Positions 4,418-14,040 of a stretch of 64,000 bases of DNA are shown here, piece after piece. Source of the stretch: Methanoregula boonei 6A8 (lineage in GTDB: Archaea > Halobacteriota > Methanomicrobia > Methanomicrobiales > Methanospirillaceae). The stretch spans positions 558,001 to 622,000 of the forward strand of contig NC_009712.1 of NCBI RefSeq assembly GCF_000017625.1, in the 5' to 3' direction. Made by a program: the position numbers and the translations under genes. Under the pieces are notes generated by a model. That model was not told the DNA's origin and made no database searches. It was given only the letters and a program-made list of their open reading frames with translations. The number at the start of each line of letters is the position of its first letter. The first letter of the stretch is position 1.

Positions 4418-5302
4418 ATGGAAATCAACGGCGTAACAATTGACGATACCTATGCGGAGGCATTCCCCACCTGGGTCTGCCGGGTGATCATCACCGCAGT
4501 GACAAAGGACTGGGCTCTTAAGGCGGCAACAGAAGCAACCGGGTTTGCGACATCTGCGATTGGCTGCCCGTGCGAAGCCGGCATCGAAAGCATCCTTTCC
4601 GGCAGTGAGACCCCCGATGGAAGGCCGGGCGTTTCGATCCTTATCTGCGCAAGCAAGAAAAAACTCAAGGAACAGGTTGTTGAACGCCTTGCCGAGTGCG
4701 TCCTGACGGCCCCCACGACCGCAGTCTTTAACGGCATCACCGACGCTGAGGAAAAAATCCCGGTCAAGCTGCATTTCTTTGGTGACGGGTATGAGTACCA
4801 GAAAGAAGTAGGCGGAAGGAAATGCTGGGTTATCCCGATCATGAACGGCGAATATGTCGGTGAAGAGGAATTCGGCATCGTGAAAGGCGTTGCCGGTGGC
4901 AACTTCTTTATCATGGGCGAGAACCAGATGGCCGCCCTTGTGGCAGCCGAGGCCGCCGTAGATGCAATTGATGAGGTCAAAGGAGTTATCACCAGTTTCC
5001 CCGGTGGGATCGTGGCGAGCGGCTCCAAGGTAGGCAGCCTGAAGTACAAGTTCATGCCCGCATCAACAAACGAGAAGTACTGCCCCACGCTCCGTGAGAA
5101 AGTGGCAGATACCAAGATCCCGGCAGGTGTCAAAGCTGTATACGAGATTGTGATCGATGGCGTTGACGAAAAGAGTGTTGCCGCGGCGATGGGTGCCGGT
5201 GTCAGGGCAGCAGTCAAGGTGCCGGGAGTGAAGTTTATCTCGGCCGGCAACTTCGGCGGGAGCCTTGGGCCGTTCAAGATCGAGCTTTTCAAGGTTATTT
5301 AA
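4418..5302 (+). CDS. ftr: Formylmethanofuran--tetrahydromethanopterin N-formyltransferase (Ftr)
   Basis: Ftr moves the formyl group from formylmethanofuran to tetrahydromethanopterin, the second step of CO2 reduction to methane. The 294-residue protein matches the usual length. It has the typical start ([23 protein letters not shown]), the [15 protein letters not shown] segment, [10 protein letters not shown], the [16 protein letters not shown] region and the C-terminal [14 protein letters not shown]. It is cytoplasmic. It is divergent from the hdr operon and followed by a T-rich stretch, so it is probably transcribed apart from the aks operon downstream. Confidence 0.97.
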
Positions 5303-5315
5303 CCCCCTTTTTTTC
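5303..5315 (+). terminator. T-run terminator after ftr
   Basis: A run of C followed by eight T residues directly after the ftr stop is typical of archaeal oligo-T termination. A new TATA box follows at 5344. Confidence 0.5.
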
Positions 5316-5343
5316 GTGAAAATTTTCTCTCACTCATGGAATC

Positions 5344-5353
5344 TTATAAATAT
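5344..5353 (+). promoter_or_regulatory. TATA box of the nine-gene aks/marker operon
   Basis: TTATAAATAT at 5344-5353 predicts a transcript starting near 5375, which excludes the upstream ATG at 5336 and points to ATG 5396 as the first start codon. No other convincing promoter appears before 14010. Confidence 0.65.
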
Positions 5354-5395
5354 TTTATTGCCGAATCATCTGTTAACGAAAATTTCGGCGATAAT

Positions 5396-6352
5396 ATGAT
5401 CATACTTACACCCGGCGATGTGAAGCAGCGGTTCGGTCCGCTCTTCTCAAAGAAATTTCTGGTGATGGTTGATGAGACGGCCGGGCGGGCCGAGATCCTT
5501 GAGCAGTGTCATGCCCGGGGTACCATTGAGTGGGATGCCATGAACCGTTCCCGTGCCGGAGGTGCCGTGGCAGCGTGTGCCGTTGAGGGAAGCACGATGA
5601 CCATCCAGGCACGGCTTGGGCGATACCCGGTCAATTTCGGGGCTGCTGCCGGCACGATTGGCGGACAGGCACTTGAAGCGGTGGAAGTGAACGGTGATGA
5701 AGTGATAACCACGTGGGCAGGAATCGCCGGTGCCGGTGTAGGAATCGCAGCCTGCCTCCCCCAGGCCCCGGGGGTAATCCGGGCTGAATACCCAAGTGAG
5801 GATGATCTCAAGGTCGGGGGAGCCCGGACCAACCATGTCCGGATTGTCTCACCCCTATACGAGAAGGTATCGTTTGGCATTGATGATACAGATACAAAAC
5901 AGGAGGGTGCCACATGGGTGATGGCCTTAAAGTGTGCGGAGGCCTGTCTCCTTGAAGGAGTGGAGTTCCTTGATATGCGCCTGATCCAGCTCAATCCAGC
6001 CGTCCCCCATAAAACCACGAACTGTGTCGGGTCCGCTCTTAATTTTGCTGCCCGGCCGGGAAGTATCGGAGCACTTCGCGAATTTGTCTGCACGTTTGTG
6101 GAAGAGCATACGTTTTCCAAAGACACCGGTATTGCATTCTCCCGAGGGATCAGGACCGGGCAGGAGTCACCCTTCCATGCGGCCATCAAAACCGAGATCC
6201 TTACTGTGCAAAAGGCCGAAGAAGAGGCACAGCGGCTCGGCATTGAATTTCTCGATCACAATGGCAGAAAGGGACGGATCGGGGCGCTCGGTGCAGTGCT
6301 CTGGGCGGACCGGGGAATCGAAGCGGCGGGACTGTATGGTGAACATCTCTGA
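5396..6352 (+). CDS. TiaS-like DDTD-motif protein, methanogenesis marker 11 type, copy 1
   Basis: A 318-residue protein with FGIDDTDTKQEGATW (about residue 160) and LIQLNPAVPHKTTNCVG (about 195). These resemble the GIDDTD and R-LNP-x-x-P-KT motifs of the kinase-like domain of TiaS, the archaeal tRNA-Ile agmatidine synthetase. A C-terminal GRIGALGAVLW also has a TiaS counterpart. It is paralogous to the next gene. Methanogenesis marker protein 11 is a methanogen-restricted family of this size with no settled function; I place this protein near it by motif. ATG 5396 was preferred to ATG 5336 because a TATA box covers codons 3-6 of the longer form. It overlaps the next gene by 17 bp. Confidence 0.75.
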   Translation: MIILTPGDVKQRFGPLFSKKFLVMVDETAGRAEILEQCHARGTIEWDAMNRSRAGGAVAACAVEGSTMTIQARLGRYPVNFGAAAGTIGGQALEAVEVNGDEVITTWAGIAGAGVGIAACLPQAPGVIRAEYPSEDDLKVGGARTNHVRIVSPLYEKVSFGIDDTDTKQEGATWVMALKCAEACLLEGVEFLDMRLIQLNPAVPHKTTNCVGSALNFAARPGSIGALREFVCTFVEEHTFSKDTGIAFSRGIRTGQESPFHAAIKTEILTVQKAEEEAQRLGIEFLDHNGRKGRIGALGAVLWADRGIEAAGLYGEHL

Positions 6353-7232
6353 TCCCTATGTGATCCGCTACCCGCAGATCGTTGCGGTAGCGGATGAGTC
6401 CGGAAGCAGCGTTGAACTTGTCGAGTTCTTCGATTGTATCGGGGGGGCGATGTGGACCCAGCACCACTATGCCAAGAGCCCTCTGGTTACCGGCGTCCGG
6501 TGCGTGGGCTCCTCTACCCGGTTCCTGCTCCGGCCAGGTACTGTGGATCTTGCGCTCGAAGGATCCCGGTTCCCGGCCGGAATCTCCGGGGTCTCGGTTA
6601 CCGGGGACGAGATCGCGGTGACCTATATCGGTATGGGTGGTGGTGGTGTCGGGGCAACCAGCTGCCGTGCAGCGGCACGGGGCGTGCTCCGGGAACAGTG
6701 CGATCCATCCGGCGGAGGAAAAGTGGCGAGTGCCACGCTTTGGCTGCCCCGCCGGCAGCGGCTCCTGATCGGTGTGGATGATACGGATACTGCTGAGGCG
6801 GGGGCCACATGGACCCTTGTCCACAATATCGCACGGGCCGTGGAGGATGAACAATCCGCATATCTCTCTCATACGATAGTCCAGCTCTTCCCGGTAGCGT
6901 ACCGGACCAAGAACTGCGTAAGCCTGGTAACTGAGTTTGCCACCACCGAACCGGAACGTCTTATCGAACGGTTCAGGGAACTGCTCCAGAAGTACACCCT
7001 CTCACAAAAGACCGGCATGGCAGTTTATACCGGTTTCTCTCCTTCAGATGAACTCGTGGAATACGGGAGGAGCGTAAAACGGGGCGAAGTGGCGCCGGAT
7101 CGCGTGCAGAATATCAGGGATCCCCGTCTCCGTATCGTCATGAACGGTCGGGGGATTACGGGAGCAGTTGCGGCCCTGCCATTCTTTACCCGGTACGAGG
7201 AGGCACTGGAACTATGCAGTGGGAAGAACTAA
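6336..7232 (+). CDS. TiaS-like DDTD-motif protein, methanogenesis marker 11 type, copy 2
   Basis: A 298-residue paralogue of the preceding gene. It keeps LIGVDDTDTAEAGATW (about residue 145), IVQLFPVAYRTKNCVSL and the C-terminal NGRGITGAVAALPFF. The N-terminal half aligns with copy 1 around the GIAGAGVG / GMGGGGVG glycine cluster. The length fits methanogenesis marker protein 11 (TIGR03280-type). The shared acidic DDTD motif suggests ATP-dependent kinase or ligase chemistry. The start at 6336 lies inside copy 1 behind a GGCGGG element, and the stop overlaps the radical SAM start by 19 bp. Two adjacent, coupled paralogues may form a heterodimer, but this is inference. Confidence 0.78.
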   Translation: MVNISDPYVIRYPQIVAVADESGSSVELVEFFDCIGGAMWTQHHYAKSPLVTGVRCVGSSTRFLLRPGTVDLALEGSRFPAGISGVSVTGDEIAVTYIGMGGGGVGATSCRAAARGVLREQCDPSGGGKVASATLWLPRRQRLLIGVDDTDTAEAGATWTLVHNIARAVEDEQSAYLSHTIVQLFPVAYRTKNCVSLVTEFATTEPERLIERFRELLQKYTLSQKTGMAVYTGFSPSDELVEYGRSVKRGEVAPDRVQNIRDPRLRIVMNGRGITGAVAALPFFTRYEEALELCSGKN

Positions 7233-8182
7233 AGGCACAGCTGCTCGAAGCCGGCTCTGCCCGGCTGAGCGGCGAACCCGCGGAAGATTATATTGCCCAG
7301 TCTACCGCAGGGCCGGGAGCCGGAGGAAAAGGGGCGGTCTTCTTTACTATGGGCAGCCACCGGGTCAAGTTTGCGATCAATCCCACATCACCCATCGAAA
7401 TTGTCCACCGGGGAAATGGTGTTGCCGATCTCTATTTCGGGGAACGCCAGATCCCGGGAAATCTCCTGCGGCCGGGGCTTCACTGTCCTGACCAGGCATT
7501 TATCACGGTCACCGAGGGCTGTATTTTTTCCTGTCGCTACTGCTCCGTTCCTCAGATGCCGGCGCGACGCAAGACCGTGGAAGAGATCATGGGGCTGGTA
7601 GAATCGGTCCGGCACCGCATCAGTGCTATCTCTCTTACCAGCGGTGTAATGGGAAGCATTGAGGAGGAAGAGGCCTATGTCTGCGAGGTGATTGATCACC
7701 TGCGGTTCTTTAGCCTGCCTATAGGGGTGTCCGTTTACCCGACTGACCAGACCCCGGGGAGGCTTCGTGCCCTTGGTGTGGCAGAGGTAAAGTTCAACAT
7801 TGAGACGGCCACCCCGGATCTCTTTGCAAAGATCTGTCCCGGGCTCGATTACAATCATGTCTGGCAGGTCCTTGACCGGTCCGTGGAACTCTTTGGGAAA
7901 GGCAGGGTCTTTTCCAATGTCATCGTCGGGCTTGGAGAGACAGATGCAGAGATGGAGGCCTGCATCAACCAGCTCGCCTCACACGGAGTGATCCCGGTGC
8001 TCCGGCCGCTCAACCCAGTTGCAGGTTGTGCCGGGATGCCCCGGCCGCCCGCTGACCGGCTCCGGCGGCTCTTCAGTATCCACCGCCAGGCCCTTGCCCG
8101 GGCTGGACTTGACACTGCCGGGGCCCTTACCATGTGTACAACCTGTGCAGGCTGCGATCTCGTGCCCGGGAGGGACGAATGA
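7214..8182 (+). CDS. Radical SAM protein with an extra C-terminal cysteine motif
   Basis: A 322-residue radical SAM enzyme. The [4Fe-4S]-binding CX3CX2C is in EGCIFSCRYCSVPQ at about residue 102. The barrel continues with SLTSGVMGS, the glycine/acid-rich VKFNIETATPDLF and the SNVIVGLGET strand. The C-terminus has CTTCAGC, a CX2CX2C that could hold a second cluster or a metal. Such extra sites occur in sulfur-inserting and maturation-type radical SAM enzymes, but the substrate is unknown here. A GAGGAGG element precedes the ATG. It is translationally coupled on both sides, between marker 11 copy 2 and the IorA-like gene. Confidence 0.8.
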   Translation: MQWEELKAQLLEAGSARLSGEPAEDYIAQSTAGPGAGGKGAVFFTMGSHRVKFAINPTSPIEIVHRGNGVADLYFGERQIPGNLLRPGLHCPDQAFITVTEGCIFSCRYCSVPQMPARRKTVEEIMGLVESVRHRISAISLTSGVMGSIEEEEAYVCEVIDHLRFFSLPIGVSVYPTDQTPGRLRALGVAEVKFNIETATPDLFAKICPGLDYNHVWQVLDRSVELFGKGRVFSNVIVGLGETDAEMEACINQLASHGVIPVLRPLNPVAGCAGMPRPPADRLRRLFSIHRQALARAGLDTAGALTMCTTCAGCDLVPGRDE

Positions 8183-9450
8183 AGGGGACCGAGGCGCTTG
8201 CCGCGGCCATATCCTCCGGGACGGACCGGCAGTATACCGTCCCGGGGTATCCTATCACGGAACTTGGTGCATTGACCGGGGCCGAGCTGGTCATAAACGA
8301 GAAGACGGCCCTCGAATATGCGCTGGGCGATTCCCTTGCCGGACGGCGCGCAGCAGTGATTGTAAAGCATGTGGGGATGAATGCCTGCGCCGATCCGCTT
8401 GTCCAGGCAACGGTACAGGGTATCCGGGGGGGTGTCCTCCTTGTGGCCGGTGACGATCCCGAGTCAAAAGGCTCCCAGACCGCGCAGGACTCCCGGTATT
8501 ACGGGGAACTGGCGGAACTCCCCGTGATCGAACCCGATGAGAATACCTGTTTTACCGGCGTTGAAGCAGCGCTTACTGCATCAGAGACATTCTCCCGGGT
8601 GGCCCTGCTCCGGCTCACCCCGCATCTGCTGGATGCGGAGGTTGACGGCGAGCCCGTTCCCCGAAACAACAAAAGCGGGAGAATTGCCGATCCGGCCCTG
8701 ACCATGCACGGCAGGGCCACCGCTGCAAACGAGATCTACCGGGCGATGTTTGCCTGGTCGGACGTTTCGCCCCTGAACCGGTGGAAAGGTGGCACTCTGG
8801 GTGCCGGATCTGCCCCGGGTGACTCCCGGATTGTAACGGTCAATCCGGTTTCCTCCCGGGCAAGGGAGATTTCTGAAATTCATGAGATCGGAAGGCCCTT
8901 TGTCCGGGATCACCGCACCGTGGCAGCACCCGGTCCGCAGGGAAAACCGGAATCCCGGAATGATCGGGGGTTCAGCCGGACATTCTGCATAACCTGTCCC
9001 TACCTTCCCCTGTTGCGGCTCTTAAAGGAGCGGGGAATGCAGGTGATCTGCGATGCCGGCTGCTCCGTTTTCAGCCTGAATCCTCCCTACGAGCTGGGTC
9101 TTGCGAGCTATGGCATGGGTGCAAGTATCGCCGTTGCAGCCCGGAGTACGCATGTAGCGCTGATCGGGGACTACGCCCTTCTTCACTCGGGCATCAACGC
9201 CCTTATCGATGTCTATGAAAAGAGGCGTCCTCTTCTCTGCATCGTGATGAAGAATCACTGCGCCGCCATGACCGGAGGCCAGACGGTCAGCGATCCTGTT
9301 CCCTATATTCGCTGGGCTGACCCGGTGGTCTGCCCGGCAGGAGATGAACACCGGCTCCGTGAGGTGATCCGGGCTCCGGATGCGCCGATGACCGTTGTCG
9401 TGGAAGCAGACTGCCCCAAAGGAGCACACCATGAAACCGTGGAATGTTGA
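8179..9450 (+). CDS. IorA-like thiamine-diphosphate protein lacking ferredoxin domains; candidate 2-oxosuberate decarboxylase
   Basis: A 423-residue relative of indolepyruvate ferredoxin oxidoreductase alpha (IorA). The N-terminal pyrimidine-binding domain has INEKTALEYALGDSLAG, KHVGMNACADPL and GGVLLVAGDDPESKGSQTAQ. The C-terminal cofactor-binding domain has FCITCPYLPLL and GDYALLHSG followed by VMKNHCAAMTGGQ. True IorA is about 600 residues and ends with two [4Fe-4S] clusters; these are absent. No iorB-like gene lies alongside, so non-oxidative decarboxylation is more likely than a ferredoxin-linked oxidation. It overlaps the radical SAM gene by ATGA and aksA by 20 bp. This context suggests decarboxylation of 2-oxosuberate to 7-oxoheptanoate in coenzyme B synthesis. 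The fold is clear; the substrate is inference. Confidence 0.75.
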   Translation: MKGTEALAAAISSGTDRQYTVPGYPITELGALTGAELVINEKTALEYALGDSLAGRRAAVIVKHVGMNACADPLVQATVQGIRGGVLLVAGDDPESKGSQTAQDSRYYGELAELPVIEPDENTCFTGVEAALTASETFSRVALLRLTPHLLDAEVDGEPVPRNNKSGRIADPALTMHGRATAANEIYRAMFAWSDVSPLNRWKGGTLGAGSAPGDSRIVTVNPVSSRAREISEIHEIGRPFVRDHRTVAAPGPQGKPESRNDRGFSRTFCITCPYLPLLRLLKERGMQVICDAGCSVFSLNPPYELGLASYGMGASIAVAARSTHVALIGDYALLHSGINALIDVYEKRRPLLCIVMKNHCAAMTGGQTVSDPVPYIRWADPVVCPAGDEHRLREVIRAPDAPMTVVVEADCPKGAHHETVEC

Positions 9451-10561
9451 GATCTGTGACGTAACATTGAGAGACGGGGAGCAGACACCGGGCGTGTCGT
9501 TCTCCTGCGAAGAGAAAGTGGACATTGCCCGGACCCTGGATCGTATCGGGATAGAAGTGATCGAGGCCGGGTTCCCCGCCGTTTCCGAAAATGAAAAGAA
9601 GTGCGTAAAGACCATAGCCGGCCTTGGGCTGGATTCACGGATCTGCGGCTTTGCACGGGCAAAAAAAGAGGATATTGCAACGGCGATCGATTGCGGTGTG
9701 GACATGGTCTCCATCTTCATCCCGACATCGGATCTCCACGTCAGGGTGAAGTTCAAAAAGCCCCGGGAAAATGTGCTTGAGGATGCCCTGGCGATGATCG
9801 ATTTCGCCCGGGATCAGGGGGTGGCCGTACGGTTTGCCGCTGAGGATGCATCACGGACCGATGCGGCTTTTCTCAAGGAGGTCTATGGAAAGGCGGCTGA
9901 TCACGGGGCCGTCCTGCTCAGTTTTGCCGATACGGTGGGTTGCCTGATCCCGGACGAGATGCGCACGATTATGACCGATCTTGTCTCTTCGGTTGACCGG
10001 CCGTTCTGTGCCCACTGCCACAATGATATGGGCTGCGCCGTTGCAAACACGATCACGGCGGCACAGGCAGGGGCCTTCCAGCTTCATACCACGGTAAACG
10101 GTATCGGGGAACGTTCGGGCAATGCTTCTTTAGAAGAGGTCCTGGTTATCCTGCGGACCAAGGGAGGCATAGACCGGTACGATCTCTCACATCTCACTGC
10201 CCTCTCCCGAAAGGTGGAAAAGTATTCCGGGATTGCTCTCCCGAAAAACAAGCCGGTGACCGGGGAACTTGCCTTCTCCCATGAGAGTGGGATCCATATC
10301 GCCGCGATCTTAGAGGATCCTGCGACTTACGAGTACTTCCTCCCTGACATGGTAGGCAGCGAGCGGCACTTCATCCTTGGGAAACACACCGGAAGAAAAG
10401 CGCTTGAGCATGTGCTCTCATCTCTGGGTGAAAACCTTTCCGAGACCCAGGTCTGCCGGGTTCTCGACCTTGTCAAGGAACATTCAGAACAGAAATGCAA
10501 TATCACGCCGGAGATTCTCCGGAAGCTGATCCGGCAGGCACAAAGGGAGGTTTCGTCATGA
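9431..10561 (+). CDS. aksA: Homocitrate synthase-type enzyme AksA (coenzyme B pathway)
   Basis: AksA condenses acetyl-CoA with 2-oxoglutarate and then with the extended 2-oxoacids, giving homocitrate and homologues on the way to 2-oxosuberate. The 376-residue protein has the DRE-TIM signature (ICDVTLRDGEQTPGVSFS), HCHNDMGCAVANTI and NGIGERSGNASLEEV, then the HESGIHIAAI segment. The start at 9431 has an AAAGGAG site 6 bp upstream, inside the preceding gene. The linked aksDEF genes favour AksA over isopropylmalate or citramalate synthase, which share these motifs. Confidence 0.9.
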   Translation: MKPWNVEICDVTLRDGEQTPGVSFSCEEKVDIARTLDRIGIEVIEAGFPAVSENEKKCVKTIAGLGLDSRICGFARAKKEDIATAIDCGVDMVSIFIPTSDLHVRVKFKKPRENVLEDALAMIDFARDQGVAVRFAAEDASRTDAAFLKEVYGKAADHGAVLLSFADTVGCLIPDEMRTIMTDLVSSVDRPFCAHCHNDMGCAVANTITAAQAGAFQLHTTVNGIGERSGNASLEEVLVILRTKGGIDRYDLSHLTALSRKVEKYSGIALPKNKPVTGELAFSHESGIHIAAILEDPATYEYFLPDMVGSERHFILGKHTGRKALEHVLSSLGENLSETQVCRVLDLVKEHSEQKCNITPEILRKLIRQAQREVSS

Positions 10562-11769
10562 GTACCTTGTCTGAACGGATTCTTGGTGCTGCCGCAGGTG
10601 AATATGTTGACCGGAAGGTTGACCGGGCCTATGCCCACGACGGAACCGGTGTCCTTGCCCTGGAAGCCTGGAAAGAGATGGGAAGAGACCGGATGGGAAA
10701 GGAGACCGGATATTATATCCAGTTCGATCATATCGCCCCGGCCAATAATGGCCTTACTGCAACCCTCCAGCATGAACTGCGAAATTTTGCAAAGCGCTCA
10801 TCCATGCATTTCTCTGATGTCGGGTGCGGTATCTGCCACCAGCTGATGGCTGAAGGGGAGGTCCTGCCCGGCGAGATCGCGGTCGGGGCGGACTCGCACA
10901 CCGTTATGCTGGGGGCATTCGGGGCGTTTGCGACCGGTGTGGGGGCAACCGACATGGCGGCAATCTGGCTGACCGGGGAGACCTGGTTTCGGGTCCCCGA
11001 ATCTGTGGGTATCCACCTGACCGGGAATCTGACCGGTGCCGCTGAAGCAAAAGACCTTGCGCTTGCCTACGTGGGAAAACTCGGTACTGACGGCGCAACC
11101 TACCAGGCGCTGGAATTTATCGGTGAAGGGGTACGTCATCTCTCCATGGATGAACGGTTTGTCCTCTCGAATCTCTCGGTTGAGGCCGGGGCAAAGGCCG
11201 GGCTTTTTTATGCTGATGAGGTGACCCTCCGTTACCTCAAGGAGCACGGACTGGATACGGTAAGTCAGGAATATGAGTCATGTTCGTACTGCCGGGAGCT
11301 TGATTTTGATCTCACCGACATCGTACCGCTGGTATCCGTCCCGCACCGGGTGGACACCGTCAAACCCGCGGACGCCGTTGCCGGCGTGCCTCTTGACCAG
11401 GTCTTTGTCGGGACCTGCACGAACGGGCGGTACTCCGATCTTGCCCGGTTTGCCCGGCTTGTGAAGGGAAAGAAAGTGGCGGTCCGGACCCTTGTTGTCC
11501 CGGCATCGGCAGCAATCCTGGAAAAGGCAATCCGTACCGGGGTGCTTGCAGATATCGTTGCGGCAGGGTGCACCATTGGAACACCGGGATGCGGCCCCTG
11601 TCTTGGCTACCACATGGGCGTGCTTGGCGAAGGAGAGATCTGTCTCTCGACTGCCAACCGGAATTTCAAGAACCGCATGGGCGTAGGCGCTGAGATTTAC
11701 CTGGGCTCTGTTGCTACTGCAGCGGCGAGCGCCCTTGTCGGGGAGATCGCGTCACCTGAGGTGGGATAA
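10558..11769 (+). CDS. aksD: Homoaconitase large subunit AksD
   Basis: The large subunit of the aconitase-type hydro-lyase that isomerises homocitrate to homoisocitrate and longer homologues. The 403-residue protein has YIQFDHIAPANN, VGADSHTVMLGAFGAFATGVGATDMAA, VFVGTCTNGR with the first cluster cysteine, and GCTIGTPGCGPCLG with the other two. Length fits the archaeal LeuC/AksD family. It begins with an ATGA overlap with aksA behind GGGAGG and shares one base with aksE. A LeuC role cannot be excluded from sequence alone, but the operon argues for AksD. Confidence 0.9.
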   Translation: MSTLSERILGAAAGEYVDRKVDRAYAHDGTGVLALEAWKEMGRDRMGKETGYYIQFDHIAPANNGLTATLQHELRNFAKRSSMHFSDVGCGICHQLMAEGEVLPGEIAVGADSHTVMLGAFGAFATGVGATDMAAIWLTGETWFRVPESVGIHLTGNLTGAAEAKDLALAYVGKLGTDGATYQALEFIGEGVRHLSMDERFVLSNLSVEAGAKAGLFYADEVTLRYLKEHGLDTVSQEYESCSYCRELDFDLTDIVPLVSVPHRVDTVKPADAVAGVPLDQVFVGTCTNGRYSDLARFARLVKGKKVAVRTLVVPASAAILEKAIRTGVLADIVAAGCTIGTPGCGPCLGYHMGVLGEGEICLSTANRNFKNRMGVGAEIYLGSVATAAASALVGEIASPEVG

Positions 11770-12239
11770 TGCAGGGAAAAGGACCTGCCATATGCCTGCC
11801 GGGAGATATCGATACCGATCTCGTGATCGCCGGCCGGTACCTGCGGACCAAGGACAAGAGTGTATGGGCAACTCATGTACTCGAGGATCTCGACCCCACG
11901 CTTGCACCCCGGCTCAAGGGTGCAGTTATTGTTGCGGGTAAAAATTTCGGGTGCGGGTCCTCCCGGGAGCAGGCAGCCTTTGCCCTCAGGGAAGCCGGCG
12001 TCATCGCGATCATTGCCCCCTCATTTGGCCGTATCTTCTTCCGGAACGCAATTAACATCGGCCTTCCTCTCATCGAATCAACACTAACCTGCACAGAAGG
12101 GACACCGGTGGCATTTGATCTTTCTGCGGGATGGGTTGATACTGAGGGAAAAAGGCATGCGATCCGCCCGTTGTCCGCCCGTATGCAGGAGATCCTCGAG
12201 GCTGGTGGCCTTGTGGAGTACTGGAGGGCTCACCAGTGA
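11769..12239 (+). CDS. aksE: Homoaconitase small subunit AksE
   Basis: The swivel-domain partner of AksD. The 156-residue protein has the characteristic LPGDIDTDLVIAGRYL start, a central GKNFGCGSSREQAAFAL motif that shapes the substrate pocket, and APSFGRIFFRNAINIGLPL. It starts on the last base of the aksD stop codon (TAATG) and ends over the GTG start of the next gene. Confidence 0.92.
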   Translation: MQGKGPAICLPGDIDTDLVIAGRYLRTKDKSVWATHVLEDLDPTLAPRLKGAVIVAGKNFGCGSSREQAAFALREAGVIAIIAPSFGRIFFRNAINIGLPLIESTLTCTEGTPVAFDLSAGWVDTEGKRHAIRPLSARMQEILEAGGLVEYWRAHQ

Positions 12240-13036
12240 TCTTTCCCGAACACTGTAAGTTTGTGGGGGTTGCCGCAGAAAAGCCCTGTGGAGACCGGGT
12301 CTATGTCCTGAGCCGGTATCTCCTGCGGGAGACTGAAGGCGGGTACGAACTCCTCGAAGTGGTCCTTGACCCGGCACAAGACCGCGTCATGCGGGAGATC
12401 ATTTCGTCGCGGGTACTGGCAACACCTGCAGAGATCTTTTCTTACCCGGAAAAGGTGCAGCTCAACGACAGGACCCGGCTCGTGCGGCTTGCACAGGAAA
12501 GCGGGTATCGCTGCACGGTTTTTACCGGCCTTGAGGAGAATATGACCTTTGTTCTCGATCCCGATCTCTCGGGATTTCTCACCCTCCATGTCTATGATGT
12601 TCTCCCTCCCCGGCCAACGCTTTCGGCGAGCCTTAAGGAAATGGAGGCACTTGGTCTCTTTGGGGAACTATCAGTGATCTTCGATCACCATATCCGCGAT
12701 ATCACCACCGTGCCGGCGGATGTCTATCCCTGCCGGGCTGCCGGGTACACAAGGACACTGGATGCCGATCCTCTGCGGGGCGGCGAACGGGTGGCCGGGT
12801 GTCTTACGGCACAACAGTTCTGCACGGAATGTTATGGTACTGACTTTACGCTCGAAAACATCTGTCCTCTTGAGCAGATAGCAGAAGAACCCTTTATTGC
12901 CCGGTGCTGCCGGGCCGAGCGCGAAGGTGTGGGTACCTGGAACGGGAAGTTCGGGGCGATCGTACACTGGGGCGCGAGCCCTGCCAAGATCGCCCGCTCG
13001 GTACAGGAAGTGGTCAGCCGGTGGAGTGCCCGATGA
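12236..13036 (+). CDS. Uncharacterised Cys-rich protein embedded in the aks operon
   Basis: I do not recognise a functional family. The 266-residue protein uses a GTG start that overlaps the aksE stop, and its own stop overlaps the aksF ATG. It is therefore fully coupled between two coenzyme B genes. There is no signal peptide or membrane segment. The middle contains FDHHIRDITT. The last third is cysteine-rich: CLTAQQFCTECYG, then ENICPLEQ and ARCCRAE, then WNGKFGAIVHWG. The clustered Cys/His residues could bind metal or an iron-sulfur cluster. The position suggests a dedicated coenzyme B step such as thiol introduction, but nothing in the sequence proves it. Confidence 0.7.
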   Translation: MIFPEHCKFVGVAAEKPCGDRVYVLSRYLLRETEGGYELLEVVLDPAQDRVMREIISSRVLATPAEIFSYPEKVQLNDRTRLVRLAQESGYRCTVFTGLEENMTFVLDPDLSGFLTLHVYDVLPPRPTLSASLKEMEALGLFGELSVIFDHHIRDITTVPADVYPCRAAGYTRTLDADPLRGGERVAGCLTAQQFCTECYGTDFTLENICPLEQIAEEPFIARCCRAEREGVGTWNGKFGAIVHWGASPAKIARSVQEVVSRWSAR

Positions 13037-14010
13037 CGCGGATCGCGATTGTTGAAGGTGACGGGATCGGCCATGAGGTGATCCCGGTAGCACATCAGGC
13101 GCTCGAACTGCTCCATCCCGAGTATGATTACTTCCCGGTGGATGTCGGGTACGGGCGCTGGGAGCAAACCGGCTGTCCCTGTGCCGATGCCGATATCGCG
13201 GCCTTGAAAACTGCCGATGCTGTTCTCTTTGGGGCCGTCACGACCCCTCCTATGAGGGATTATCAGAGCGTTGTCCTGCGGATCAGGAAGGCCCTCGACC
13301 TGTACGCAAACCTGCGGCCGGTGAAAAGCGACGGTTTTGATATCCTGATCGTACGTGAGAATACCGAGGGGATGTACTCGGGGATTGAGGAGATCGGCCC
13401 GGATCGGGCAACAACGCTGCGGGTGGTAAGCCGGACGGGTACCGAGAGGATTGTGCGGGCCGCGATCCGGTGCGCCGGGCAGCGCCGGGGGAAACTGACC
13501 ATCGGGCACAAGGCGAACGTGCTCAAATCCGATGTCTTTTTCCGGGACATCTGTATAGCGGAGGCACAGAACGCCGGGGTTGAATATAATGACAAATATA
13601 TCGACGCCCTTGGCCTTGACATCCTCCAGCATCCCGGCGCATACGATGTGGTTGTAACCACGAACATATTCGGCGACATCATCTCGGATGTCTCCTCGTA
13701 CCTTGTCGGGGGACTGGGCCTGGTGCCGAGCGCCAATATCGGCGACCGGTATGCACTCTTTGAACCGGTGCATGGCAGCGCCCCGGATATTGCCGGTAAG
13801 AACATCGCAAACCCCATTGCGGCCTTACGGAGCGCGGCAATGCTTCTTGCCCACATCGGGGATCAGGAAGGTGCCGAGCGGATTGAATCCGCCATAGGTA
13901 CCGTCATTTCTTCTGGTATCCTGACCCGGGATATCGGGGGATCGGCCGGGACATGGGAGTTTGGCGAAGCAGTCCTCAAAGCTCTGGGAAATTGCCCGGT
14001 TGGCCGCTGA
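13033..14010 (+). CDS. aksF: Homoisocitrate dehydrogenase AksF
   Basis: AksF oxidatively decarboxylates homoisocitrate and its homologues, closing each round of chain extension to 2-oxosuberate. The 325-residue protein has the isocitrate/isopropylmalate dehydrogenase signature: AIVEGDGIGHEV at the start, ENTEGMYSGIE, the catalytic HKANVLK, NIFGDIISD and FEPVHGSAPDIAGK for NAD binding. It starts with an ATGA overlap with the upstream gene and is last in the operon, followed by a hairpin and T-run. Confidence 0.92.
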   Translation: MTRIAIVEGDGIGHEVIPVAHQALELLHPEYDYFPVDVGYGRWEQTGCPCADADIAALKTADAVLFGAVTTPPMRDYQSVVLRIRKALDLYANLRPVKSDGFDILIVRENTEGMYSGIEEIGPDRATTLRVVSRTGTERIVRAAIRCAGQRRGKLTIGHKANVLKSDVFFRDICIAEAQNAGVEYNDKYIDALGLDILQHPGAYDVVVTTNIFGDIISDVSSYLVGGLGLVPSANIGDRYALFEPVHGSAPDIAGKNIANPIAALRSAAMLLAHIGDQEGAERIESAIGTVISSGILTRDIGGSAGTWEFGEAVLKALGNCPVGR

Positions 14011-14020
14011 GCCATTGTAC

Positions 14021-14040
14021 GGGAAAAATCCCCTTTTTTT
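14021..14040 (+). terminator. Terminator of the aks operon
   Basis: GGGA-AAAA-TCCC can form a short stem and is followed by seven or more T residues, 11 bp after the aksF stop. The next gene is on the other strand. Confidence 0.55.

Follow-up and report, generated by a model that had tools for sequence, protein, structure and literature searches.

A nine-gene operon of Methanoregula boonei 6A8 with a probable role in coenzyme B biosynthesis and candidates for its late steps

The DNA analysed here (the window) is a stretch of 64,000 nucleotides from Methanoregula boonei 6A8 (NC_009712.1, positions 558,001 to 622,000), part of a closed genome of 2,542,943 bp. Positions 5396-14010 of its plus strand hold nine complete open reading frames (ORFs), which very probably constitute one operon for the biosynthesis of coenzyme B, the cofactor needed to release methane. 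To our knowledge, coenzyme B is used by every methane-producing and methane-oxidising archaeon, and we know of no genes assigned to its synthesis past 2-oxosuberate. The pathway was called still unknown in a 2025 paper (PMC12068725). The literature we searched on coenzyme B genes, DUF7714 and XcbA holds nothing that assigns the late steps; publication beyond the searched literature is possible.

The nine genes overlap at all eight junctions (by 17, 19, 4, 20, 4, 1, 4 and 4 bp in gene order), which confirms what the initial annotation had stated. It had also seen only one promoter, and this agrees with our search: in the region 5303-14010 (8.7 kb, 58% G+C), a single site matches the TATA octamer at 7 or more of the 8 positions, if its own one-base shift (7/8) is set aside. 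The start codon of gene 1 (ATG) follows 52 nt downstream of this box. Gene 1 has an alternative ATG at 5336, and its relatives start at the equivalent of the ATG at 5396 (MIxLTP). A sigma-70 promoter scan was set aside as uninformative for an archaeon. A terminator-like hairpin follows gene 9 (Table 1), and the Ftr gene (4418-5302) lies upstream of the block.

Genes 5, 6, 7 and 9 are of the LeuA, LeuC, LeuD and LeuB type and belong to the same set of families as the known Aks pathway of coenzyme B (AksA, AksD/E and AksF), which covers the route to 2-oxosuberate. Their Aks names are based on subfamily-level matches and on context, and for AksA and AksF the scores stay below all Aks equivalog cut-offs. 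In contrast to the known pathway, the operon adds candidates for the steps past 2-oxosuberate, namely the other five genes, which we call orphans. They encode two proteins related to methanogenesis marker protein 11 (Mmp11; genes 1 and 2), a radical S-adenosylmethionine (SAM) protein (gene 3), a thiamine pyrophosphate (TPP) enzyme (gene 4) and a DUF7714 protein (gene 8).

Table 1. Features of the nine-gene block, in window coordinates. IOR, indolepyruvate ferredoxin oxidoreductase.
Feature	Position	Strand	Basis
TATA box TTATAAAT, probable single operon promoter	5344-5351	+	8/8 match to tested TATA consensus set
g1, class II Mmp11-like protein with TiaS kinase (TCKD) domain	5396-6352	+	TIGR03280 180.9 bits (below cut-off); PF22641 53 bits
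g2, class I Mmp11, TiaS-like ATP-dependent enzyme	6336-7232	+	TIGR03280 333.9 bits; fold match to TiaS 3amt
g3, radical SAM protein, C-terminal CxxCxxC	7214-8182	+	PF04055; distant LipS2/BioB/LipA kin
g4, TPP enzyme, IOR-alpha-like without ferredoxin domain	8179-9450	+	TPP_enzyme_C
g5, AksA, homocitrate-type synthase	9431-10561	+	LEU1_arch family 436 bits
g6, AksD, homoaconitase large subunit	10558-11769	+	IPMI_arch above cut-off
g7, AksE, homoaconitase small subunit	11769-12239	+	LEUD_arch above cut-off
g8, DUF7714, XcbA homologue (GTG start)	12236-13036	+	PF24830 292.6 bits; NF052538 49.7 bits
g9, AksF, homoisocitrate dehydrogenase	13033-14010	+	LEU3_arch 371 bits; Iso_dh
Terminator-like hairpin GGGAAAAATCCCC followed by T7	about 14021-14040	+	Sequence reading and short fold

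The block is conserved in other genomes. Genes 2, 3 and 4, aksA, aksD, aksE, gene 8 and aksF were found in the same order and on the same strand in 38 of the 46 Methanomicrobiales loci that were read, with gene 1 in front of them in 24 of these 38. Three of the remaining loci have all nine genes in a rearranged form, and five are reduced. The nine-gene arrangement is far beyond chance. In Methanocellales, mmp11 and the radical SAM gene are found together with a TPP-aksA-aksD-aksE-aksF-DUF7714 series. Nearly all Methanosarcinaceae and Methanotrichaceae loci contain aksE-DUF7714-aksF; in Methanosarcinaceae, mmp11 adjoins the TPP gene at another place. In the anaerobic methanotroph group ANME-2, mmp11 adjoins an aksE-type gene, in Methanobrevibacter it is near aksD-aksE-aksF with ribH in between, and in a Thermoplasmata methanogen a class II Mmp11 gene is near aksD-aksE. 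Since the linkage between orphans and aks recurs across orders, the five orphan genes are no local accident. The initial annotation had proposed such a comparison of neighbourhoods, and in related genomes the orphans are indeed linked to aks. Among 246 Halobacteriota genomes, DUF7714 was found in 121 and class I Mmp11 in 140, the additional Mmp11-positive genomes including Archaeoglobi. Orthologues of gene 4, which were separated from the IorA proteins of 600-650 residues by length and score, were seen in Halobacteriota methanogens and their relatives.

Natural knockouts support a coenzyme B role of the operon. Methanomicrobium mobile BP (G271; identity of the genome checked, identical sequence) has coenzyme B among its growth requirements (review PMC10658910, citing Kuhner 1991); the exact growth data used here come from secondary statements. 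Its locus is reduced to ftr, gene 1 and DUF7714, with 168 bp from the gene 1 stop to the start of the DUF7714 ORF, and two rumen metagenome-assembled genomes (MAGs) match this reduced locus. Genome-wide sequence searches, on which all such absences rest, revealed no class I Mmp11, radical SAM partner, AksF or AksA in M. mobile, and IorA was the only TPP enzyme that they returned. At the locus, aksD and aksE are missing as well; these two genes were not searched for genome-wide. Three congeners of M. mobile retain all nine genes. A Methanocorpusculum from goat colon (G278, locus L123) is an independent case of the same loss, with gene 1 and DUF7714 retained. Between these two genes it carries a 100-codon ORF, the last part of which aligns to the N-terminus of the radical SAM protein (86 columns, 52% identity, E 4e-28), while the catalytic part is lost. 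From this remnant, it follows that the loss happened in place.

A third state was found in M. petauri (G127), genome G191, Ca. M. faecipullorum, termite Methanocalculaceae MAGs and Ca. Methanorbis. These genomes are without aksA, aksF and the TPP gene and retain class I Mmp11 and the radical SAM gene; DUF7714 is also present in every case in which its part of the locus could be read. In some of these genomes, AksA- or AksF-type matches are left over, with scores typical of LeuA/LeuB or of another homocitrate-type synthase. The losses form a nested series: the aks and TPP genes are lost first, then class I Mmp11 with the radical SAM gene, and gene 1 and DUF7714 remain. Genes 2, 3 and 4 thus both co-occur with aks and are lost together with Aks genes in a coenzyme B auxotroph; genes 1 and 8 are retained in it. 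An aldehyde dehydrogenase gene directly follows the operon in all six species read of the genus that contains Methanomicrobium (g16), and it persists after the loss of the operon (L099:10518-11930, L068:11481-12881).

Gene 4 encodes a protein of 423 aa with a TPP domain above the PF02775 cut-off, and its NEK motif, which contains the catalytic Glu, is invariant in 15 proteins. It has the TPP fold and the PP/TPP halves in common with IOR-alpha, but it ends after the TPP domain and has no ferredoxin domain, whereas IorA in the same genomes has about 600-650 residues; its score against the IOR-alpha model TIGR03336 is 139.8 bits, far below the cut-off of 650.9. It was lost along with aks in 11 of 11 aks-less genomes tested. 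An analogous decarboxylation is carried out in coenzyme M synthesis by the sulfopyruvate decarboxylase ComDE, although gene 4 is not a ComDE orthologue. On this basis, we consider it quite probable that gene 4 decarboxylates 2-oxosuberate to 7-oxoheptanoate.

For gene 8, the lead comes from bacteria. The protein is a weak but full-length match to the XcbA family NF052538 (49.7 bits, its relatives 40-114, all below the cut-off of 150), and C166, C189, C210, C224 and C225 are invariant in 15 aligned proteins, three of them bacterial. In a tblastn search, plasmids of alkene-oxidising or methanotrophic bacteria (Nocardioides JS614, Mycolicibacterium chubuense NBB4 and Methylocystis iwaonis) proved to encode relatives of DUF7714, and each of these genes adjoins those for phosphosulfolactate synthase and lyases of coenzyme M synthesis. 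The bacterial homologue leads to Xaut_5070 (XcbA) of Xanthobacter autotrophicus Py2, which likewise lies on a plasmid, directly upstream of phosphosulfolactate synthase and inside a thiol-cofactor cluster. The reported substrate of XcbA is sulfoacetaldehyde, in the final reaction of coenzyme M synthesis (Wu, in 2022), and earlier isotope work is said to indicate an aldehyde route to 7-mercaptoheptanoate. By analogy, gene 8 would turn 7-oxoheptanoate into 7-mercaptoheptanoate, its substrate differing from that of XcbA, and we regard this as somewhat more probable than not. The XcbA reaction is indirectly supported by PMC11507031. On the M. iwaonis plasmid, a cluster of nitrilase, MSMEG_0568-type radical SAM and AIR-synthase-like genes adjoins the coenzyme M cluster (L258:2565-7220).

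M. boonei requires coenzyme M, and the coenzyme M synthase MMP16 was not above cut-off in a whole-genome search of its genome (G000); it is also missing in several other genomes with a complete coenzyme B operon. The survival of DUF7714 in auxotrophs had raised the idea that it is the coenzyme M synthase here. This is disfavoured, as a genome without MMP16 keeps DUF7714 inside the aks operon. MMP16/ComF and the L-aspartate semialdehyde sulfurtransferase (COG1900) have been suggested as possible coenzyme B enzymes (PMC12068725); their aldehyde-to-thiol chemistry is alike, but they belong to a protein family unrelated to DUF7714. A fold search with the predicted DUF7714 model (predicted local distance difference test, pLDDT, 91) found no solved relative. 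DUF7714 of the M. mobile branch has 46-50% identity to its congeners, compared to 74-84% among the congeners, an abrupt change; the comparison genes, with identities of 82-86% (ftr) and 79-83% (gene 1), changed little. The goat-colon Methanocorpusculum shows a similar shift. We read this divergence as a sign that the coenzyme B substrate was lost and that the protein may be kept for another one. MMP16 of M. mobile is also strongly diverged (289.6 bits versus about 500 in its congeners).

Gene 2 exceeds the cut-off of the Mmp11 family TIGR03280 (255.8 bits), and the TiaS kinase domain PF22641 was found in both gene 1 and gene 2 (53.2 and 45.5 bits, cut-off 27). The predicted structure of gene 2 (pLDDT 92) matches TiaS 3amt over the kinase domain with an E value of 1e-7. 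TiaS is the tRNA(Ile2) agmatidine synthetase; its kinase domain with the GIDDTD motif is common to Mmp11, and the invariant Thr of the Mmp11 GATW motif aligns with TiaS Thr18, which we take to be the residue autophosphorylated by TiaS. However, Mmp11 has an N-terminal domain of its own and is without the C-terminal tRNA-binding part, genomes with Mmp11 encode TiaS separately, and the full TiaS architecture was not detected (equivalog cut-off 600 bits; gene 1 scored 45.5 bits and gene 2 was not listed). In the TiaS reaction, ATP serves to activate a carbonyl, which an amine then attacks, and it is therefore natural to propose that Mmp11 forms the amide of coenzyme B or phosphorylates its threonine. 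That gene 2 might make the threonine amide and/or the phosphate remains a tentative assignment, to which we give slightly less than an even chance. Gene 3 does not reach the cut-offs of the sulfur-inserting radical SAM equivalogs (LipS2 65 of 270 bits, LipA 28, BioB 28); its involvement in coenzyme B at all appears moderately probable. The class I Mmp11 and radical SAM genes also neighbour each other, as a pair, in two family f28 genomes, presumably Syntrophoarchaeia.

The best overall explanation, which with all its step assignments we hold to be reasonably likely, is as follows. AksA, AksD, AksE and AksF would lengthen 2-oxoglutarate to 2-oxosuberate by known chemistry, to which they are assigned by homology and context. 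The TPP enzyme would then most plausibly convert 2-oxosuberate to 7-oxoheptanoate, and gene 8 could swap the aldehyde oxygen for sulfur to yield 7-mercaptoheptanoate, its five invariant cysteines acting as cluster ligands or as a sulfur relay. Gene 2, with its ATP-dependent kinase domain, might activate a carboxyl or hydroxyl group towards the threonine amide and/or the phosphate, and gene 3 may work with gene 2. Gene 1 could be an accessory protein, conceivably a kinase that also serves salvage.

Several observations weigh against this explanation. Gene 4 orthologues were not found in the sampled Methanobacteriota or Thermoplasmata, gene 3 orthologues were not found in the sampled Methanobacteriota (some Thermoplasmata have distant matches), and DUF7714 was not found in the control genome of M. 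jannaschii, in which Mmp11 is present. If the assignments are right, these organisms thus need other enzymes in place of genes 4 and 8. M. mobile has many other auxotrophies, and its gene losses are therefore not specific to coenzyme B. DUF7714 survives in the auxotrophs under purifying selection (omega 0.07-0.16 in M. mobile and relatives) and must therefore have a role that outlives coenzyme B synthesis. This retention would fit an alternative in which the radical SAM enzyme inserts the sulfur of coenzyme B and DUF7714 does something else, such as the handling of coenzyme thiols in salvage. Among characterised families, gene 3 comes closest to LipS2, lipoyl synthase and biotin synthase, and the three cysteines at its C-terminal end might ligate an auxiliary cluster. 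We nevertheless find it unlikely, as the bacterial coenzyme M clusters with a DUF7714 homologue contain no radical SAM gene of this kind; the aldehyde route that earlier isotope work is said to indicate also speaks against it. The assignment of gene 4 has a competitor of similarly low probability, namely that it is an oxidoreductase and not a simple decarboxylase, which would give an activated C7 acid from 2-oxosuberate. Besides its homology to IOR-alpha, gene 4 keeps the proximal-cluster cysteines of IOR and pyruvate ferredoxin oxidoreductase (CxxC...C...C), an iron-sulfur cluster pattern that also fits an oxidative reaction, but the missing C-terminal ferredoxin domain and the lack of a gamma-type subunit in the operon favour a decarboxylase.

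The strongest evidence against a pure coenzyme B reading of genes 2 and 3 is the occurrence of the pair in Archaeoglobi. In non-methanogens whose genomes we take to be those of Ferroglobus placidus and Geoglobus, class I Mmp11 overlaps or abuts the radical SAM gene, and the search for an AksA of about 390 residues gave none, but only LeuA/CimA-type proteins with a length of about 500. In four Geoglobus loci (L280:8777-14675, L281, L282, L292), the pair is followed on one strand by cysteate synthase, a fused ComDE and an SsuA-like gene, which suggests coenzyme M-type synthesis in these non-methanogens. The pair may act in thiol-cofactor metabolism more widely than in coenzyme B. Two pathways could thus be joined in the operon, with the Aks proteins, gene 4 and gene 8 making coenzyme B and the pair making a separate product that is only co-regulated, such as another thiol cofactor or a modification common to methanogens and some Archaeoglobi. 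The nested loss, which separates an aks and TPP unit from an Mmp11 and radical SAM unit, agrees with this. However, class I Mmp11 has aks genes beside it or close by in Methanobrevibacter, ANME-2 and Methanocellales, and in two lineages the pair was lost only where aks had already been lost. We rate two joined pathways as the less likely case, though the most serious competitor. The position of ftr directly upstream of the block in most Methanomicrobiales loci might suggest that methanogenesis genes with no relation to one another are held together here as a housekeeping operon for co-expression, but this is very improbable: ftr stays in M. mobile when the rest is lost, the loss follows the coenzyme B boundary, and the links between aks, mmp11, the TPP gene and DUF7714 recur without ftr in other orders.

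The initial annotation had matched the five orphans to the four steps that remain after 2-oxosuberate. The idea that orphans supply late steps was strengthened by the loss of genes 2, 3 and 4 with aks in a coenzyme B auxotroph, and gene 8 as a late step gained from its homologue in bacterial coenzyme M clusters, which is consistent with a role in forming the thiol. The dedication of genes 2 and 3 to coenzyme B was weakened by the pair in Ferroglobus and Geoglobus. The simple count of genes and steps was weakened as well. Gene 1 as an essential step had to be given up, since it is missing from several genera with complete aks and is kept unaccelerated in auxotrophs. We thus dropped the view that all five orphans are dedicated coenzyme B enzymes.

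Gene 1 is dispensable for coenzyme B synthesis in general and is missing from genomes with complete aks sets (G058, G014, G017 and Methanosarcina). It does not reach the TIGR03280 cut-off and branches in the tree within a clade of its own (class II); our guess is that it is a kinase or ligase that completes salvaged coenzyme B precursors. A third Mmp11-like class has an N-terminal helix-turn-helix in the two copies read, one in this genome (L259:9074-10252, about C1:1380074-1381252) and one in M. mobile (L261). Matches scoring as class III occur in every, or almost every, member of the Methanomicrobiales surveyed, and also in M. mobile; the class may be a regulator with the Mmp11/TiaS kinase domain as its scaffold. 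In F. placidus (L279:8123-10094), the radical SAM gene overlapped by class I Mmp11 is of the MSMEG_0568 type. In four Archaeoglobi-like loci (family f9; L287, L288, L289, L295), the pair adjoins a McrA thioamidation gene related to TfuA (its family was tested in L287).

The operon and its natural knockouts provide a short list of candidates for the late steps of coenzyme B synthesis, with an order that can be tested, and M. mobile is a ready bioassay. They also offer a probable role for one universal methanogenesis marker protein, Mmp11, and connect the synthesis of coenzyme M in bacteria with that of coenzyme B in archaea. A joint scenario, which we put forward as speculative and rather doubtful as a whole, is that the thiols of both cofactors come from homologous XcbA/DUF7714 proteins, that the TiaS fold was recruited for the threonine amide or phosphate of coenzyme B, and that Mmp11 and its radical SAM partner serve a related thiol cofactor in Geoglobus and Ferroglobus. 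The enzymes of the operon would be candidate targets for methane mitigation.

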